Source of the DNA: Adhaeribacter swui
GTDB taxonomy: Bacteria; Bacteroidota; Bacteroidia; Cytophagales; Hymenobacteraceae
Length of the DNA: 64,000 bases
Assembly (NCBI RefSeq): GCF_014217805.1
Contig: NZ_CP055156.1
Span: 3,478,585-3,542,584 of the forward strand
Direction: 5' to 3'
Numbering within the stretch: the stretch's first letter is position 1; every line of letters begins with the position of its first letter. The notes below the pieces were generated by a model that had not been told where the DNA came from, made no database searches, and was given only the letters and a program-made list of their open reading frames with translations. Of the stretch, positions 7,667 to 28,622 are shown piece by piece. Position numbers and translations under genes: made by a program.

Positions 7667-7866
7667 GCGGTGGTTAATTGCTCGGGTAAATTTTTAAATT
7701 TATTTTAAAATTTCAAACCAAAATAGCCAGTTTGTCCTGCTTAGAACCTGTTGTAATAGCTAAATTTAAAAATAACGAATTTTATTTCTGGATACTCTGA
7801 TTTAAGCACTTGTAATCTGTACTATTGATCTAAATTAAACTCTATAACCTGCCAACTATCAGCCCT

Positions 7867-8739
7867 ATGCTAACCAGCCCCATGTTACAGGAAAATGCTT
7901 TACAAAATAAAGTTTTAGTAATAACCGGGGGCGGAACCGGATTGGGTAAGGCCATGGCCGAAATGTTTCTGCGGCTGGGAGCGCAGGTGGTAATTACCAG
8001 CCGCAAATTGCCCGTGCTGGAGCAAACCGCTACGGAATTGCAACAACTTACCGGCGGTAGTATTTTACCTTTAGCCTGCGATGTACGCGATTACAACGCC
8101 GTAGAAACCATGCTGGAGCGCGCCGTAGCACATTGCGGTAAAATTGACGGCTTAGTTAACAATGCCGCAGGCAATTTTGTGAGCCCCACAGAGCGATTAA
8201 GCCCGAAAGCTTTTGAGGTGGTAACGGATATTGTTTTAAAAGGCAGTTATCATACAACTTTAGCGCTGGGCAAACACTGGATTGCGGCGCAACAACCCGG
8301 CTGTTTTTTAAATATTGTTACAACCTACGCCTGGACGGGTTCGGGTTACGTGGTACCTTCGGCTTGCGCCAAGGCGGGGGTGCTGGCGCTTACCCGTTCT
8401 TTGGCCGCCGAGTGGGCTAAGTACGACATTCGTTCCAACGCCATTGCGCCGGGTCCATTTCCTACCGAAGGAGCCATGAGCCGCCTCTTTCCAGCACCGC
8501 TCGCCGATACGCTCGATCCGGTAAAGCGAATTCCGTTAAAACGCCTGGGCAACCCCGCCGAATTAGCGAACCTGGCTGCTTATCTTATTTCGGATTATGC
8601 GGCTTTTATAAACGGCGAAGTAATAACGATGGATGGCGGCGAGTGGCTTTACGGTGCCGGCGAATTCAATCATTTCGACGAGGTGCCTAGCTCCATATGG
8701 GATAGCCTGGAACACCAACGCCGCGAAAAGAAAGAATAA
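7867..8739 (+). CDS. SDR oxidoreductase, 2,4-dienoyl-CoA reductase-like
   Basis: Short-chain dehydrogenase of 290 residues. The cofactor motif TGGGTGLG, the acidic CDVRD segment and NNAAGNF identify the Rossmann SDR fold. The usual catalytic YxxxK is replaced by SACAKAG, followed by ALTRSLAAEWA. That absence of the Tyr is normal for the 2,4-dienoyl-CoA reductase (DECR) subfamily, as is the substrate-loop and end region (GPFPTEGAMSRLFP). It likely works on unsaturated fatty acyl-CoA. The second ATG (7882, MLQENAL) is an equally good start. Divergent from YdcF and convergent with the lactonase-fold gene. Confidence 0.85.
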   Translation: MLTSPMLQENALQNKVLVITGGGTGLGKAMAEMFLRLGAQVVITSRKLPVLEQTATELQQLTGGSILPLACDVRDYNAVETMLERAVAHCGKIDGLVNNAAGNFVSPTERLSPKAFEVVTDIVLKGSYHTTLALGKHWIAAQQPGCFLNIVTTYAWTGSGYVVPSACAKAGVLALTRSLAAEWAKYDIRSNAIAPGPFPTEGAMSRLFPAPLADTLDPVKRIPLKRLGNPAELANLAAYLISDYAAFINGEVITMDGGEWLYGAGEFNHFDEVPSSIWDSLEHQRREKKE

Positions 8740-10962: not shown

Positions 10963-11940
10963 TCAGAATTCATTTACTGCCAAGACCAGCTTACCAATGT
11001 GCGTGCTGCTTTCCAGAAGAGTGTGGGCCTGGCTTGCCTGTGCCAGCGGAAAAACCTGGTGAATAATAGGTTTAAATTTGCCTTGCTCCAACAAAGGCCA
11101 CACATTCTTTAAAATCGCGGCGGTTAGGTTAGCTTTAAAATTGGCATCGCGGGGGCGCAAGGTACTGCCCGTAATAGTTAACCGCCGGCGCATAACATCG
11201 GCAATATTAAACTCGCCCGCCGCTCCTTGCATGGCATTAATAAAAACTAAACGCCCATCCGGATTTAAAATTTTTAAATTTTTAGGCGTGTACGAACCGC
11301 CAATCATGTCTAATATTACATCTATACCTATTGGCGCTAAAACTTCGGCAAAATCTTCGGTTTTGTAATTAATGGCTTTTTCGGCTCCCAGCTTTTCGCA
11401 GGCTGCGCATTTATCGGGGCTCCCGGCGGTGGTAAATACCCGCGCCCCTAGGGCTTTGGCTAATTGAATAGCCGTAATGCCAATGCCGCTGCTTCCGCCG
11501 TGTACCAAAAAAGTGTCGTGTGCTTGCAGTTGCCCTCTTTCAAAAACATTGTGCCACACCGTAAACACCGTTTCGGGTAAAGAAGCTGCTTCTACGAACG
11601 AAAAATTTTCGGGTACGGGTAAACAATGTCTGGCGTCCACTACAGCATATTCGGCGTAACCGCCGCCGCTAAGCAACGCGCATACCGCCTGCCCGGGTTG
11701 CCATTGCGTTACCGCCGACCCGCAAGCTGCAATAATGCCGGCTACTTCCAAGCCGGGAATATCGACGGGGGCGCCCAGAGGGGGCGGGTAATTGCCTTTA
11801 CGTTGAAAAACATCTGGCCGGTTCACGCCGGCGGCTTTTACCTGGATCAGGACTTCGTTGGCTTCCGGAACCGGGGTTGGCCGTTCTTGTATTTGCAAAA
11901 CTTCGGGCAATCCGGGTTGGATAATTACAATGGCTTTCAT
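10963..11940 (-). CDS. Zinc-independent quinone oxidoreductase (MDR, PIG3-type)
   Basis: Medium-chain dehydrogenase/reductase of 325 residues, of the NAD(P)H:quinone oxidoreductase / PIG3 class. Shown by the N-terminal GroES-like domain (VKAAGVNRPDVFQRKGNYPPP, PGLEVAGIIAACG) and the cofactor segment VHGGSSGIGITAIQLAKALGARV. The catalytic-zinc Cys/His of alcohol dehydrogenases are absent, as usual for this group. It probably reduces quinones or enones with NADPH. It is monocistronic with a long AT-rich upstream region. Part of the recurrent A/T palindrome is embedded in the coding sequence (11263-11284, read as NLKILNP). Confidence 0.9.
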   Translation of the reverse strand: MKAIVIIQPGLPEVLQIQERPTPVPEANEVLIQVKAAGVNRPDVFQRKGNYPPPLGAPVDIPGLEVAGIIAACGSAVTQWQPGQAVCALLSGGGYAEYAVVDARHCLPVPENFSFVEAASLPETVFTVWHNVFERGQLQAHDTFLVHGGSSGIGITAIQLAKALGARVFTTAGSPDKCAACEKLGAEKAINYKTEDFAEVLAPIGIDVILDMIGGSYTPKNLKILNPDGRLVFINAMQGAAGEFNIADVMRRRLTITGSTLRPRDANFKANLTAAILKNVWPLLEQGKFKPIIHQVFPLAQASQAHTLLESSTHIGKLVLAVNEF

Positions 11941-12616: not shown

Positions 12617-14845
12617 ATGACCCACTCCTTTACTTTAACAAACAATCCTAGCCGCGATTTTAAAAAAACACTAACCCGCAGCCGGCAAATTGTTATTTCG
12701 CTTTTAATTATCCTGATTGTAAATTGTGGGATTAAAATAGCTTTTAATCTACCTGTTTCGGCCTTTCTGGTTGGTATCATGGTGGTTATTTTCCTGGGTT
12801 TGCTGGTGTTGAGTAATAAGGGGCATATAACCCTGGTGCGGGCGGGCAGTAACCTTACAATCAGTATTTTTCTGGTGTTTATTGTCTACGCCGAGGGGTT
12901 GCGGGCTTCAGCGCATTGGTATATTTTAACGTTGCTGTTTACGATGCCCCTGCTGGGAGAAAACAATAACTTTTACAACCGGGAGAACTTTATGTACTTC
13001 CTTTTATTTGTGATCTGTTTTTGTGTGTGCATTTACTTTATAGAAGATGAAAGTAGTGTGCAACAAATTAGTGATGCTACTTACCAGGTAATTTCGCGGG
13101 TAAATAATACGCTGGTAATTCTGATGTGTATTGCTTCGTGTTTACTGTTGCTTTACAACGAAAATAAATATTATGCGGCCTTGTTAAACGAAAAAAACAA
13201 AGCCGAACAAGCTTTGCAGCAAGCCGAGCAGGCCCGCCTGGAAGCTGAAAAAGCCAACCAGGCCAAAAGTATATTTCTGGCCACCATGAGCCACGAAATC
13301 CGCACGCCTTTAAACGGAGTACTTGGCATGACTTCCTTACTGGCCGAAACCAAACTGGATGCTGAACAGCGGAACTTTACCGAAATTATTTGTAATTCAG
13401 GTAATGCGTTGCTTTCGGTAATCAACGATATTCTCGATTTTTCAAAAATTGAATCGGGGAATATGGTGCTCGAAGACGAACCTTTTGATTTGCGCGACTG
13501 CATAGAAGATGTATTGGATGTGTTTGCCAGCAAGGCGGCGCAGCAAAACCTCGAATTAATGTACGAGTTTGATCCCCAGATTCCTTTGCGAATAAGTGGC
13601 GACAGTACCCGTTTAAAACAAATATTAATTAACCTGATCGGGAACGCCTTTAAATTTACTACGCAAGGCGAAATAGTGGTTGGGTTACAATATTTAGGTA
13701 AGCGGGAAAACGGACAGACAGAACTGGCTTTTGAAGTACGCGATACCGGTATTGGTTTTTCGCCAGAGCAGGCCGCTAAATTATTTAAAGCATTTACGCA
13801 ACTCGACTCGTCTACTACGCGCAAATACGGGGGCACCGGTTTGGGCTTGGCCATTTGTACCCGTTTGATCGAACTTATGGGAGGCACTATGTCGGCAATG
13901 AGCCAGCCGGGGCAAGGGGCAACTTTCTGTTTTACTATTTTAACTCAAGAGAGCAACCCGGTTTTACCAGCGCCTTGTACTGCTAATGTGGCGGAGCTAA
14001 GCGGCCGGCGCATTCTGGTAGTAAATGCTAATGCAACCAACCGCAGTATTCTGCAAAAACAGTTAGATTGCTGGCAATTTACATCCGTGCTCACTCAATC
14101 GGGCGAGGAAGCGCTGGCGCAAATCCGGACGCAAGCGTTTGATTTGGTAATTACGGATATGCACCTGTCCGGTATAAATGGATTAGAGCTGGCAAAATTA
14201 ATAAAACAGGAGCAGCCTGCTTTACCATTCATGTTGTTAAGTTCTGTCGGTAACGATGGCGAGGCAAAATCCAGCGGTTTTTTCCGGAGCGTATTAACCA
14301 AACCCGTGCGGCAGCGGCAATTACAGCAAGAAATTATCCGTTGCCTGCAACAAGAGCAACCAGAAGAAAAGCCAGCGATAACCGAAAACAAACTATCCCT
14401 CCGCTTTGCCAACCAGTATCCGCTACGTATTCTGGTGGCCGAAGATAACCCCATTAACCAAATGTTTGCCCAAATGGCTTTAGAACGTTTAGGTTACCAA
14501 ACCGATTTGGCTGAGAACGGCCGCTTCGTGTTAGAAGCTTTGCAAAGAACTACGTACGACGTTATTTTGATGGATGTGCAAATGCCCGAAATGGATGGCC
14601 TGGAAGCTACCCGGATGATCAGGTCAAACAAGGAGCGTGATTTTGAACAGCCTTATATTATTGCCACTACGGCTAATGCCATTAAAGAAGACGAGCAAGC
14701 TTGTTTACAAGCGGGCATGAACGGATATATCAGCAAACCAATAGATTTAGACGAACTTATGCTGGCTTTGCGGCAAGCAGCCGGTGTAGTAGAAGAAAAA
14801 GCAGTACGCGAAATGAATAAAGAAGAGCAACGTTCTATAGCGTAA
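12617..14845 (+). CDS. Membrane hybrid histidine kinase with two receiver domains
   Basis: A 742-residue hybrid sensor kinase. N-terminal membrane domain with about six helices (residues 25-180) and no obvious external sensor; coiled coil (185-215); HisKA with H226 in [10 protein letters not shown]; HATPase with N-box [16 protein letters not shown] and GTGLGLAI. Two receivers follow. The first (about 455-570) has lost the acidic pocket (LVVNANATN in place of DD) but keeps a candidate Asp (VITDMHL) and the LTKP Lys. The second is complete: AEDNPINQ, D653 in [16 protein letters not shown]. There is no output domain, so it must pass phosphate on or act through the receivers. Paralogue of the next gene. 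Confidence 0.92.
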
Positions 14846-23402: not shown

Positions 23403-24323
23403 CTAATCTGCCCAGTAAGGTTTCCGGCGGGGCGGGAAAGCGGGGGCTTCCTGGTCGATCATTTCCAGCAGCGAGGTTTCAATGGTTTGGCAAATGGAAT
23501 TAAGGGGCAAATCGTTGGGCTCCAGGCCGAAGGGTTCTTCGATTTCGGTAACAATGGCATCGAGGGCGATAAAGGTGTAGCCCACAAAAACCGTCATGAT
23601 GGGGGTCATCCAGCCAATGCTATCTACCAGGCCAAAGGGCAGCAAAAAGCAGTAAATGTACACGGTGCGGTGCAGCAGCACGCTGTAAGTGTAGGGAATG
23701 GGGGTGCCGGCAATCCGTTCGCAGCCGCCCACAATACCGGAAAGTTGGTTCAGGTTATGGTCGAAAGCGGCCTGGGCAATGGTATCGATCTGGCCTTCGG
23801 TTTTGAGTTGCTGTACCCACAGCCCTATTTCCTGGAGCAACCGGATGGGTTTAAATTTTACTTTTTGCACGGTTTGGGCCAAATCGGGCGGGAGCAGCCG
23901 TTGCAAATCCGGCGTAGCATCGGTGCGGCGCAGCTGGTGTTTGAGGGCGTAGGCAAAGGCGATAACCAAACGGGTAAATGCCACTACTTTCCCGGACTGG
24001 GCGGGCAACTGAGTAAGGGTAAGCGCCTGGCGGGTGAGCGACCGGGAATCGATGAGTAAGGCGCCCCAGAGTTTGCGGCCTTCCCAGAAACGGTCGTAGC
24101 TGGCGTTGTTCCGGAAACCCAGAAAAATAGCCATGGCAATCCCAATTAAAGTAAAAGGCGTTGGGTTGAGCGGAATTTTATACTCAAAAAACTGCCCCCG
24201 GAAATACACAATCAAGGAGGAAAGCAGCAACAAAGCCACCAAACGCGGGAAAATATCCGGCAGCACCGACCCGTGCCACACAAACAGCATCCGGAACCAG
24301 TTACTTTTTTCTTTTATAATCAT
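23403..24323 (-). CDS. Bestrophin family chloride/ion channel
   Basis: Bacterial bestrophin (UPF0187) of 306 residues, the usual length. Signature pieces are the first helix LVALLLLSSLIVYF, the FTLIGIAMAIFLGFRNNASYDRFWEGRKLWG segment, and the C-terminal FGLEPNDLPLNSICQTIE, matching the conserved EPFG.E.nDLp.....iE tract. Bestrophins form pentameric ion channels in the inner membrane; ion preference of the bacterial ones varies (KpBest is cation-selective). Monocistronic. Confidence 0.92.
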   Translation of the reverse strand: MIIKEKSNWFRMLFVWHGSVLPDIFPRLVALLLLSSLIVYFRGQFFEYKIPLNPTPFTLIGIAMAIFLGFRNNASYDRFWEGRKLWGALLIDSRSLTRQALTLTQLPAQSGKVVAFTRLVIAFAYALKHQLRRTDATPDLQRLLPPDLAQTVQKVKFKPIRLLQEIGLWVQQLKTEGQIDTIAQAAFDHNLNQLSGIVGGCERIAGTPIPYTYSVLLHRTVYIYCFLLPFGLVDSIGWMTPIMTVFVGYTFIALDAIVTEIEEPFGLEPNDLPLNSICQTIETSLLEMIDQEAPAFPPRRKPYWAD

Positions 24324-24340
24324 GGTAAGAATTTGGCCGG

Positions 24341-24348
24341 CAAATTTA
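24341..24348 (-). promoter_or_regulatory. Candidate -7 box for the bestrophin gene
   Basis: CAAATTTA on + reads TAAATTTG on the minus strand (TAnnTTTG), 18 bp before the bestrophin ATG. A CAAA (TTTG) at 24372-24375 lies 23 bp further, a little longer than the usual 19-20. Confidence 0.33.
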
Positions 24349-24428
24349 GAGAGGGATTCTTGGAAAACCTACAAAACAATGCAGGCCGAAGAAGTCAGAA
24401 GTTGAGGATTAACTGTAACTCTTTTGCT

Positions 24429-25388
24429 TTATAATGCACTTCTTATTTTGTTGATTTCGTACTGAATAAGACTAAAAGTATTAAGCTCCTCATCTGTAAG
24501 TTCATTCAATGACTTTATAATTGTTTCTGCAGATTGATCTATTGGAATAACTCTTCTTAATTTGTTTATCGCAGAAGCAGGAATGTCGTATTCTAATAAT
24601 GTTGCTGAATTAGAGTGCAAAAAACCATTTTCAAGATTGCTCGCAAAGTAAGTAAAACTACCAGGTTGTAAATTGTGTTTTGTAAATACATGTTCCTGGA
24701 TATTAGAAATTGTAGTTATCCATTTGGGTAGTTTATAATCAAACCAATGCCTAGAAATGTATAGTATAGAATATGATGCAATATCAGTACGCTCCTGTAA
24801 ATCAGGAATTTTATTAATCCAAAATTCCTGATTTATATAATGTGAGATAACTGAAGGAATTGATCTTAACCTTGTGTAGGAACGAGTAAAAGATGCTAAC
24901 CATCTTGCTGATATCCTTCCAATTTTCTCGATGTATAAAGCTCTATCAGATTGAGTTGCAAGTGTATTCCAACATAATTCTATGATAATGCTTAAACTGT
25001 CAAAATCCGGAGGATAGGTTCTCCAAGATAATAAATTATGATAATAATCTAGATTCGATTCTATTTTTTTAATAATATCTAGTTGTCCTTTAATTGAAAC
25101 TCCAGAATTAGTTTTAAGTAACTCCTGTAGATCCTGTGGGTAGCTTCTAAATTCATCTAATCGCGTCTTTGACTTTTCCTCAATTTCATTTGCATCTAAA
25201 GAAACTAAAATTTCCAAGGGGCATTTTTCATGATTAAATAATGGGATATCAACAAACAATTCCATCTGATCTGGCTCGGGTTCAAATCTCACTACTATTC
25301 CTTTATAATGGCGTTTCATTCTACCTGAACGACCAGCAATATTCTTGTAATCAAAAAAGTCTATTGGTTTAGTTCCTTTTTTTATCAA
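24429..25388 (-). CDS. hamB: HamB-like helicase, C-terminal part (after frameshift)
   Basis: Continuation of the helicase that begins at 26655. The region starts KKGTKPIDFFDYKNIAGRSGRM, which is helicase motif VI (NIAGRSGRM) and follows directly on the motif V end of the upstream part. The rest is an alpha-helical C-terminal domain typical of this Ski2/HamB-like group. The apparent TTG start at 25388 is not a credible start, because it overlaps the end of the N-terminal frame in a run of seven A. One A fewer would give a single protein of about 740 residues. Base composition is far more AT-rich than the neighbours. Confidence 0.8.
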   Translation of the reverse strand: MIKKGTKPIDFFDYKNIAGRSGRMKRHYKGIVVRFEPEPDQMELFVDIPLFNHEKCPLEILVSLDANEIEEKSKTRLDEFRSYPQDLQELLKTNSGVSIKGQLDIIKKIESNLDYYHNLLSWRTYPPDFDSLSIIIELCWNTLATQSDRALYIEKIGRISARWLASFTRSYTRLRSIPSVISHYINQEFWINKIPDLQERTDIASYSILYISRHWFDYKLPKWITTISNIQEHVFTKHNLQPGSFTYFASNLENGFLHSNSATLLEYDIPASAINKLRRVIPIDQSAETIIKSLNELTDEELNTFSLIQYEINKIRSAL

Positions 25389-26655
25389 ACAAAATCACGT
25401 TTTTAGCAGATGTATTTACTCCTTCAATTAAAGTTGAAGTGCAAAATAGCCATCTAATTGATCCGTTATTAAATGCATCAATAATTGAACTACCTAAATG
25501 TCGCGGAATTGCACCATGATGAAAAGCAATGCCATATTTTAAAGCTTCGCTTAGTGACCATGAAGAATTTACATTTTGTCGAATCCACTCTATTATAATT
25601 TCATTGTTTTCAACTTCTTGATCCGAATTAAAAGGGTTGGCTTTTGTTTGTGAAGTGTTTTTAAGGTGCGAAATAAATTCAAGCGCTAAATATGTAGCTC
25701 TAGAAGGTGAAGAACAATAAATTAAAGTTTGAGCTCTATCTGATATTAATAATTCAAATAAACGATGTTTCTTCTTTTCTTCTTTTTCAGTTGACTTTAA
25801 TTTTTCAGTTAATTCAAGATTTATTTCATCAACTGCCACTGTAGCAAATTCGGTAGAGAACCATTTAAGATTAAATTTTTCCTTAAATGAATTAGGAATA
25901 TTTTGAATCATTGGTCCGAGTAAGTAAAATCTTTGAGTAAGTTTTAAAAGTCTATATAAAGCCTGATTTAATGCAATGGCTCTGTCATCATCGCGATCTA
26001 AACTTAATTTATAAAACTCATCAATAATGAAAAAATCAACATTAGGAAAATGTTGGTATTCAACAACCCTTTCTCCTGTAAATAAAAATATATTACACTT
26101 TATTAAATCAGGCTCTTGGTTTGTTGATACAATAATTTTGTAATCCTCTCTATATCTTAAAAGCTTTTTTCTCGTTTCATCCAGTAATGCTAAAGTAGGC
26201 TGAATTATAACAATTTGTTTATATAAACAACTAGCTATTAATTCCTCAATAAGTAAACTTTTCCCAAAACTTGTGGGTGCACTTACTACAATAGAGTTTT
26301 TGTTTTGAAGAGCAATAGATAATTCTTGTTGTTCAGAATGTAAGTATATATCTTGAATAAATGGAGATTTATGATACTCATAGCGAATCTGAGCACTTCT
26401 AGATAGAAATTCAGAGTCAACATATGGATAAAGTCCTGCAGCCTCTATTAAATCATTCCAAATTGGTTTTGTACTATCGTCAACTTTATCCCAAACATCT
26501 AAAACCCTGATTATGATATCTCTTGCAATTTTTTCGTGGTCTTTAGATTTGAGTAAACTTGAACATAACTTGGATAAATAAAAACTGTTTTCAAATCCAA
26601 TTAAGTCTGTATTATTTAGAAAACTAATTGCTGATATACTATCATTAAATGTCAT
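25369..26655 (-). CDS. hamB: HamB-like DEAD/DEAH helicase, N-terminal part
   Basis: ATP-dependent helicase half of a Hachiman-type defence pair. Residues 1-110 are helical. Walker A is APTSFGKS; motif II is IIDEFYKLS (DEFY rather than DEAH, as in Ski2-like defence helicases); later motifs include LIYCSSPSR, FHHGAIPRHL and FCTSTLIEGVN. The frame then reads NVILFDKK and stops after RN, at the run of seven A (25377-25383), while the correct continuation lies in the next gene piece. The start ATG overlaps the hamA stop codon (ATGA), so the two are translationally coupled. In Hachiman, HamB loads on DNA and releases HamA upon sensing damage. Confidence 0.85.
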   Translation of the reverse strand: MTFNDSISAISFLNNTDLIGFENSFYLSKLCSSLLKSKDHEKIARDIIIRVLDVWDKVDDSTKPIWNDLIEAAGLYPYVDSEFLSRSAQIRYEYHKSPFIQDIYLHSEQQELSIALQNKNSIVVSAPTSFGKSLLIEELIASCLYKQIVIIQPTLALLDETRKKLLRYREDYKIIVSTNQEPDLIKCNIFLFTGERVVEYQHFPNVDFFIIDEFYKLSLDRDDDRAIALNQALYRLLKLTQRFYLLGPMIQNIPNSFKEKFNLKWFSTEFATVAVDEINLELTEKLKSTEKEEKKKHRLFELLISDRAQTLIYCSSPSRATYLALEFISHLKNTSQTKANPFNSDQEVENNEIIIEWIRQNVNSSWSLSEALKYGIAFHHGAIPRHLGSSIIDAFNNGSIRWLFCTSTLIEGVNTSAKNVILFDKKRN

Positions 26656-27491
26656 ATACTCTGCATTGCTTTCAATCGTTTATCTAATTCTGTATTAAGC
26701 TCATTTTTGTCTGGAACTGGAAGCAACATTAAAATAATCTCCACATTAGTTGCTGTATTTAATTTTGTGAATTCTCCATGAAGAGAATTGCATTCATTTA
26801 TAAATGCATTTAAATACAATTGATCTTCACAATCATGTTTTTTAAATAAATCGCTTGAATAAGTGCATACCATTGGTATAACTATACTTGAAAAAACGAT
26901 ATCTAGTTTTTGATGCCTATCCATTAATTGAATCCAATGTTCTCTTTCAGGTATATCTGCTGGAATCTTTCTAGAAATTAAATTGAACTCTTTTCTTAAA
27001 TAATCTCCGTTAACATGGTTTACAATGTCTTTAGCTAAATCCTTAATTCCGTCTTTACCTGTTTTAAATAATTTTGATTCGCCAAGCCACAGTTTTTTTA
27101 CATTGTTCTCAATTGTGATATGGATTCCATCAAAACCGTGAACAGGTACATTATATGTATCTTTAAACCAAATTTTAGATAATAGAGGAATAGTATTGTG
27201 AAAATCTCTTAATAAGAGATGTAAAATTAGTTCTCCAAATTCACCACGACTCTTATACTTGTCAGTTAGATATACGGTCTCAGCCGCTTCTTTTAGCCTT
27301 GTTATTATTTCATTTTGGGGGATATTTCCACAATGGAAACCAAGAGAAAATTCTGGAATTACATTTCGTATAACATCAACTAAAGGTTGAAGCCTAAATT
27401 TATTCTGGTCAAATCCAACATGATACGCCTTTAAAGTTGCATCATTGATCTGTTCATTAATTACAAGATCAGACTTAAAGGGCCTTGGCAT
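26652..27491 (-). CDS. hamA: HamA-like DUF1837 nuclease (Hachiman defence)
   Basis: A 279-residue DUF1837 protein, the effector of the Hachiman anti-phage system. The family core is visible: YKSRGEFGELILHLLLRDF, then LLSKIWFKD, VHGFDGIHI and LWLGESKLF. This gives the PD-(D/E)xK-type triad D121...E138-x-K140, which supports DNase activity. It is followed, with a 4-bp ATGA overlap, by a helicase, the gene order of known hamA-hamB pairs. The local sequence is much more AT-rich than flanking genes, a sign of transfer. Assignment rests on recalled family motifs and gene order; a profile search would settle it. Confidence 0.87.
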   Translation of the reverse strand: MPRPFKSDLVINEQINDATLKAYHVGFDQNKFRLQPLVDVIRNVIPEFSLGFHCGNIPQNEIITRLKEAAETVYLTDKYKSRGEFGELILHLLLRDFHNTIPLLSKIWFKDTYNVPVHGFDGIHITIENNVKKLWLGESKLFKTGKDGIKDLAKDIVNHVNGDYLRKEFNLISRKIPADIPEREHWIQLMDRHQKLDIVFSSIVIPMVCTYSSDLFKKHDCEDQLYLNAFINECNSLHGEFTKLNTATNVEIILMLLPVPDKNELNTELDKRLKAMQSI

Positions 27492-27635
27492 TAATAAAAT
27501 ATAGGTTATTTAAAAATCGAAACTTATAAAAGATATTATAAAGTTTTATAATTATATATTTTTTTTTGCATGTGCAAATATTTTAGTTAGTTAATTATAT
27601 ATTAAGCGTAAATATAAGATAGACTTATATCGTTC

Positions 27636-28622
27636 CTACCACCGATCATGCACCAAGGGCTTAATCTTCGCCTCGTAAATGGCTTTTACGCCTTCCCATT
27701 GCTCTGGCGTGAGGTCGGGTACTTCCAGGGCTTGCAGGTTAGAGGTGAGCTGGTTGGGTTTGGAAGCTCCTGGAATAATGCAGCTTACGGCCTCAAATTG
27801 CAATATCCAGCGCAGGGCTACGGGAGCTAAATTTTCCTGGTCCGGGAACAGTTTTTTAATTTCTTCTACCGCTTCCAGGCCGGTATTATAATCGAGGCCC
27901 GAGAACGTTTCGCCTTTGTCGAAGGCCTCGCCGTTGCGGTTAAAGTTGCGGTGATCGTCGGGGGCAAAGTGGGTTTCGGGGCGGAACTTGCCAGTGAGCA
28001 GTCCGCTGGCCAGGGGCACCCGCACAATTACGCCAATGTCGCGACGCTGGGCTTCCCGGAAAAATAACTCGGCGGGCCGTTGCCGGAACATATTAAAAAT
28101 AATCTGCACGGTGGTTACATTCGGGAATTCAATGGCTTTAAGGGCTTCTTCTACTTTTTCCACGCTCACGCCCATGTTTTGAATTTTGCCTTCTTCTTTC
28201 AGCCGGTCGAACAGCTCAAATATTTCGAGCCGGTAATATACCTCGGTGGGTGGGCAGTGCAGTTGAATCAGGTCCAGGGTGTCGAGGCCGGTGTTGCGCA
28301 GGCTGTCTTCCACGAAAGCGCGCAAGGCCGCGGGGGTATAGGATTGGTTCACGTGCGGGTTCAGGCGGCGGCCGCATTTGGTAGCCACGTGTATCCATTC
28401 GGAGCGGGATTTTACCACCCGGCCTACGGCCTTTTCGCTTTCGCCGTCGCCGTACACATCGGCGGTATCAATAAAGTTAACGCCGGCATCTATCGCGGCA
28501 TTTAAAATGTGGTCGGCATTTTCGTGGCTGAAGGGCTCGCCCCATTTGCCACCTACCTGCCAGGTGCCTAAACTTATTTCGGATACTTCAATGCCGGTTT
28601 TTCCTAGTTTTCTGTATTGCAT
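27636..28622 (-). CDS. Aldo/keto reductase
   Basis: NAD(P)-dependent aldo/keto reductase of 328 residues with a TIM-barrel fold. Start MQYRKLGKTGIEVSEISLGTW; catalytic Asp/Tyr in FIDTADVYGDGESEKAVG; Lys in HVATKCGRR; His in LIQLHCPP. Cofactor-binding end: AVSCIIPGASKPNQLTSNLQA. It resembles the general-stress YqkF/IolS-type group acting on unknown carbonyls. It marks the upstream edge of the AT-rich defence island. Confidence 0.92.
   Translation of the reverse strand: MQYRKLGKTGIEVSEISLGTWQVGGKWGEPFSHENADHILNAAIDAGVNFIDTADVYGDGESEKAVGRVVKSRSEWIHVATKCGRRLNPHVNQSYTPAALRAFVEDSLRNTGLDTLDLIQLHCPPTEVYYRLEIFELFDRLKEEGKIQNMGVSVEKVEEALKAIEFPNVTTVQIIFNMFRQRPAELFFREAQRRDIGVIVRVPLASGLLTGKFRPETHFAPDDHRNFNRNGEAFDKGETFSGLDYNTGLEAVEEIKKLFPDQENLAPVALRWILQFEAVSCIIPGASKPNQLTSNLQALEVPDLTPEQWEGVKAIYEAKIKPLVHDRW

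Follow-up and report, generated by a model that had tools for sequence, protein, structure and literature searches.

The locus analysed here raises the question of whether a Hachiman anti-phage system whose helicase is read in two frames is a lost, a switchable or merely a misread defence. A first-pass annotation of the 64,000-nucleotide stretch of DNA that contains it (the window) had called the locus Hachiman, from a DUF1837 protein followed by a helicase, and had made this call depend on HamA profile matches of the upstream protein. Such matches were indeed found, as HamA was recognized by PADLOC PDLC00150 (E 1.1e-89) and by Pfam HamA, PF08878 (E 4.9e-52; 177.5 bits against a cut-off of 25), and all of the 23 PADLOC families that matched it at E up to 0.01 were HamA, while a phmmer search of solved structures with HamA alone gave no convincing relative, with four chance-level matches (best E 0.07). 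The residues D121, E138 and K140, proposed in the annotation as the nuclease triad, lie at exactly those positions and are invariant in all 14 HamA proteins compared, that of the window included; E138 and K140 are named as catalytic in the accessible part of a Hachiman study (PMC12278908), and the inclusion of D121 follows the annotation. The ATGA in which the HamA stop overlaps the HamB start is also present as described. The locus thus has a HamA/DUF1837 protein, the HamA catalytic residues and an adjacent Ski2-like SF2 helicase, HamB, but not the helicase as a single uninterrupted frame. It is Hachiman by descent, with a putative function.

We then located the frame change relative to the helicase profile. 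The N-terminal piece of HamB, in which Pfam finds DEAD and Helicase_C domains, corresponds to positions 11-405 of the 709-position PADLOC profile PDLC00180 (E 2.3e-152), and the C-terminal piece to positions 404-705 (E 2.1e-63), so that the two meet at the seven-A run with zero profile positions missing, exactly where the helicase had been reported to split. The meeting of two pieces of a single profile at this run is not chance; furthermore, a search of the whole genome with PDLC00180 at E up to 0.001 returned only these two pieces. The C-terminal piece is free of stops, and none of 2,000 base shuffles kept it open, indicating that an open frame of such composition does not arise by chance. 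Before the run lies IEGVNT, which we take to be motif V, and after it GRSGR, which we take to be motif VI, and the cut thus presumably falls within the helicase core itself and not at a domain boundary. The features of the locus are collected in Table 1.

Table 1. Positions in the window of the Hachiman genes, the frame change and the borders of the island.
Feature	Position	Strand	Basis
Bestrophin gene, one hotspot border	23403..24323	-	Pfam Bestrophin_2, E 6.7e-114
Acquired island, 3.2 kb, bounded by loss of homology to G004	24392..27632		Nucleotide matches
HamB C-terminal piece, 319 aa, other frame: motif VI and C-terminal part	24429..25388	-	PADLOC, AbpB alignment
N-terminal piece of HamB, 428 aa, with Walker A, the DEFY box and the motifs as far as V before its stop	25369..26655	-	PADLOC, Pfam, AbpB alignment
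Seven-A run at the frame change (seven T on +, seven A on -)	25377..25383	-	Sequence, run list
HamA (DUF1837 nuclease), 279 aa	26652..27491	-	PADLOC, Pfam
Aldo-keto reductase gene (AKR1), other hotspot border	27636..28622	-	Pfam Aldo_ket_red

The genes lie in what had been read as a recently acquired AT-rich island, and the comparison with the sister genome G004 bears this out. Homology to G004 ends with the bestrophin block at 24391 and resumes at 27633, adjoining the stop codon of the aldo-keto reductase gene, and the GC content of the island is 0.304, whereas the four kilobases that end at 24 kb and the eight that begin at 28 kb have values of 0.45-0.51. Another AT-rich kilobase, at 12-13 kb, was inspected and looked ordinary, being the start of an apparent histidine kinase gene (named by eye).

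The reductase was matched in all eight genomes of the genus, although in G003 the close copy covers only part of the gene; a search there for a full-length close copy turned up nothing but distant paralogues and the truncated copies at the hotspot. Different cargo stands behind the reductase in four of the eight genomes (G003, G004, G005 and the window's own, G000). The cargo of G004 comprises HigB, a HigA-like gene, an HNH protein, an IS3-like element and a Fic protein (HigA and IS3 assigned by eye from the sequence), and that of G003, where the reductase copies are all truncated, an HNH protein, a PD-T4-5-like protein, Nmad2 and a zeta-toxin-like protein. In G005, one ORF that PADLOC did not match separates the reductase from the type I restriction system behind it, and the bestrophin gene is located elsewhere; the other four genomes carry seemingly ordinary genes at this place, as judged by eye. 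Truncated reductase 3' ends and bestrophin 5' ends stand between the cargo genes of G003 and G004 (L042:8989-9266, 11457-11812 and 13467-13835; L043:4522-4770 and 7691-8011), as though modules had arrived in succession and brought part of a flank along. The gap behind the reductase (24323-27636 in the window; also in L042, L043 and L144) is therefore a hotspot for defence and toxin-antitoxin genes, and the differing cargo together with the truncated flank copies supports acquisition by exchange at the hotspot, through a putative mechanism. Defence cargo in the genus can also be sought independently in the flanking hotspot.

Several details of the borders were observed in addition. Judged by eye, the homology of the reductase copies breaks off a few bases at most from the stop codon, and a short GTAGG occurs at both hotspot borders in several genomes (near 27635 and 24375 in the window; also in L042, L043 and L144), which may be chance. 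A composite of the HigA-like gene, a reductase remnant and the HNH gene is common to two sister genomes (L043:4155-5771 and L042:10458-12075).

What, then, has happened to HamB? We give a probability of about one half to the reading that a Hachiman operon in a defence hotspot lost its HamB frame very recently by a slip in the lysine-coding A-run, and the locus is probably an ordinary Hachiman inactivated in this way. An operon with the short form of HamB, about 740 aa, would have been acquired into the hotspot, and a slip in the A-run, which encodes a lysine-rich stretch between motifs V and VI, would have cost HamB its frame. The translated HamB would end after motif V, so that the RecA2 part of the ATPase core would be incomplete, HamA would stay unreleased, and the cell would largely tolerate the loss. 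From the missing motif VI and C-terminal part, we infer that defence may be off in this clone. According to the part of the Hachiman study at hand, HamB senses aberrant DNA, a proposed RecA2 motion releases HamA, and HamA degrades DNA; in E. coli, deletion of HamA or HamB, or mutation of either active site, ablates defence, and HamA interface mutants remain viable (PMC12278908). The same part reports that mitomycin C and bleomycin affect E. coli strains with mutant HamB more strongly than HamA mutants (PMC12278908), and the loss of HamB is thus perhaps not fully harmless. Since both pieces of this HamB score well, the locus also warns that profile hits by themselves are a poor basis for counting defence systems.

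Next, the HamB frame was compared among relatives. Three sets of genomes that partly overlap, numbering 204, 390 and 395, were searched, and 13 other helicases scored above 730 bits; HamB is a single open frame in all 13. A protein-only scan of genome contigs with the HamB N-terminal piece gave zero relatives, whereas a scan based on an alignment of ten of the 13 did yield them, affording 99 further loci, namely the best 80 of at least 459 confirmed from genome contigs and 19 from viral contigs. Within this selection, 97 of the 99 have one frame without stops, and 93 of the 94 matches that cover at least 85% of the query are clean; as the loci were selected by score, a criterion that tends to bring up intact genes, these counts are not the true rate of broken HamB. 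The two exceptions are L283, with one in-frame stop late in the match, and L286, a partial match (25%) in two frames, and one of the 80, L188, is the same gene as L005. No break at the window's site was found among the 13 relatives or these 99 loci, and none of the relatives examined has two separate proteins ending at this site, which the annotation had named as a finding that would speak against a frameshift. A distant HamB relative in G054 (L013, about 25-27% identity) lies in two frames with an unmatched middle. A plasmid search with the L005 helicase returned 63 records, all below 60% identity, four of which cover at least 80% of the query. HamB relatives were also seen in archaeal bins (L202 and L205) and in 19 IMG/VR viral contigs (L268-L286).

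The stretch between motifs V and VI was scanned in 111 loci, giving 101 distinct segments, with pattern misfits and repeated segments left uncounted. It measures 19 residues in 73 segments, 20 in 22, 21 in five and 23 in one, and thus at least 19 in every one of the 101. By a count made by eye, the window has 18 codons and a single extra base there. It is thus two bases shorter than the commonest length, which suggests a net loss in the lysine-coding A-run. Indeed, FDKKKG stands at this spot in nine of the 101 segments, with A-runs of 4-6, and the longest core A-run has 2-5 A in 83 segments, six in 14, seven in three and eight in one, and hence at least six in 18 of the 101, suggesting that the spot can be slip-prone.

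The cut-off half was also examined for further decay. The identity of the C-terminal piece between the window and L051 is 49.5%, that between the two intact genes L005 and L051 is 47.6%, and that between the window and L005 is 43.3%; over 305 sites, the window has 42 unique changes, L005 48 and L051 29. For HamA, the window has the fewest unique changes of the same three (19, versus 30 and 54). By these comparisons, the cut-off half of HamB shows no apparent further decay and HamA no apparent signs of it, and the description of the locus as "dying" was therefore overstated. The lack of decay suggests that the break is very young, not real, or bypassed, being expected from a sequence error or a bypassed break as well. 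Between decay, switch and error, which the annotation had left open, our results lean towards a genuine and very young loss of frame.

We therefore investigated whether the A-run might have been miscalled in sequencing or assembly, leaving the gene whole in the organism, which we regard as unlikely but possible. The break sits at a homopolymer, a classic error site, neither the cut-off half of HamB nor HamA shows decay, and in the accessible part of one survey, frameshifts that occur as singletons and are validated by BLASTp are expected to reflect sequencing errors and not true indels (PMC3711429). Against this, the window's genome is a three-contig assembly of 100% completeness, and its A/T runs of 8-10 occur at about the same frequency as those of two sister genomes. 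From the 6.2-Mb genome, 800 kb were compared with an equal length of a sister genome; the 225 sister genes that matched with at least 60% identity across 80% or more of their length were kept and the others dropped. In the window's genome, homopolymers of seven bases number 113 in these 225 genes, those of eight 30 and those of nine 4, and none of the 147 runs of at least seven bases stands at a frame break, as judged by eye from the printed contexts. Three of the 225 matched in two frames, none at such a run: one is the sister's own break, some 50 bases from which a seven-A run lies, the window's genome having an unbroken 317-aa frame there; one concerns the first 20 residues only; and one looks real, with no run of six or more in its printed context. 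In the reverse comparison, eight of 223 conserved genes of G004 (800 kb) lay in two frames, which indicates that the test is able to see breaks.

The same gene family provides a worked example of such errors, in the DUF1837-helicase loci (L287, L288 and L289) of three sibling, near-identical plasmid records of Rhizobium leguminosarum; HamB lies in one frame in strain Ta1k, in three in Ta9k and in four in Ta6k. Compared with Ta1k over 6.3 kb, Ta9k and Ta6k each have one mismatch but six and eight indels (record ends included), several of them at homopolymers. In Ta6k the annotated HamA, too, is split, and in Ta9k the same holds for a neighbouring protease gene. With many indels and hardly any mismatches, the broken HamB of these two records looks like sequencing error. 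None of their HamB breaks lies at the window's site, and in contrast to the Rhizobium records, the window shows just one break. These records moved our odds slightly, lowering the probability of a recent loss from 0.52 to 0.50 and raising that of an error by as little.

It is improbable that the run is a switch or is bypassed, so that slippage of replication or of RNA polymerase would yield full HamB in a fraction of cells or transcripts and keep a mildly toxic system mostly silent. Such a bypass would account for the undecayed half of HamB, and ectopically expressed Hachiman is mildly toxic, according to the available part of its study (PMC12278908). As a precedent, the accessible part of another report describes an 11-A run in Citrobacter rodentium tssM1, where transcriptional slippage restores the full protein at about 20-25% (PMC4256274), and slippage has been suggested for a dnaX gene with seven A in the part of the frameshift survey at hand, which nonetheless cites more than 7 A as the run length for transcriptional slippage (PMC3711429), so that seven A is at the lower edge. 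Furthermore, runs of seven A/T are common (651 per Mb in 800 kb of the window's genome), those of at least seven occur in the island at chance number (three observed versus 3.37 expected from codon shuffling), and no examined relative changes frame at the window's site. With regard to phase variation, the tract is seven long, at chance frequency and known from a single sequence, and we found no positive sign of a switch; the titles and abstract openings of the literature on Hachiman with frameshift or phase variation describe no broken or switching HamB. We give little credence to a Hachiman that is mostly off but recoverable via the A-run in its helicase core, with only rare cells or transcripts making the sensor. 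If it were switchable, the locus would show how a defence that destroys the DNA of its own host is kept quiet, in a hotspot of mutually replacing defence and toxin-antitoxin modules.

A programmed ribosomal frameshift, or two genuine proteins assembling a split helicase in trans, is very improbable: the TTG start of the second frame does overlap the end of the first by 20 bases, but the arrangement is absent from every relative examined, the RNA fold around the break is no better than that of shuffles (z -0.11), neither a conserved site nor a stimulatory structure was found, and the cut presumably lies inside the helicase core, between motifs V and VI. Nothing supports programmed frameshifting at this break.

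Finally, we return to the recent loss of frame and compare the locus with known systems. It shares with the Hachiman of E. coli ECOR31 (PDB 8VX9) the two-gene arrangement of a DUF1837 nuclease with E138 and K140 and a Ski2-like helicase, as described in the accessible part of its study (PMC12278908); the ECOR31 HamB has 1174 aa, in contrast to the broken, shorter HamB of the window, and matches it only over residues 356-428 of the N-terminal piece (E 4e-7). The closest solved helicase by sequence is the 729-aa AbpB of E. coli AbpAB (PDB 8ZUE), in which the N-terminal piece corresponds to residues 15-411 (E 3.7e-64) and the C-terminal piece to residues 412-693 (E 2.1e-9) of 8zue_B. An identity as AbpAB was rejected. 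AbpA has 538 aa with an N-terminal Cap4 nuclease, by the part of its description at hand (PMC10732053), and an inactive HamA site, by that of the Hachiman study (PMC12278908), whereas the HamA of the window has 279 aa, only the Pfam HamA domain and an intact triad. Citrobacter rodentium tssM1 is likewise interrupted at an A-run, but its run has 11 A with measured slippage, as stated in the accessible part of the report (PMC4256274), while the seven A of the window are known from sequence alone. With L051, the HamAB of Hymenobacter edaphi (G197; L005, L048 and L188) is one of the two nearest relatives found, with identities of 67% in HamA, 61% in the N-terminal and 43% in the C-terminal piece of HamB, and its HamB is one open frame of 738 aa, whereas that of the window is broken. 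The locus is thus one more Hachiman of the short-HamB form, with its helicase frame lost at a lysine-coding A-run.
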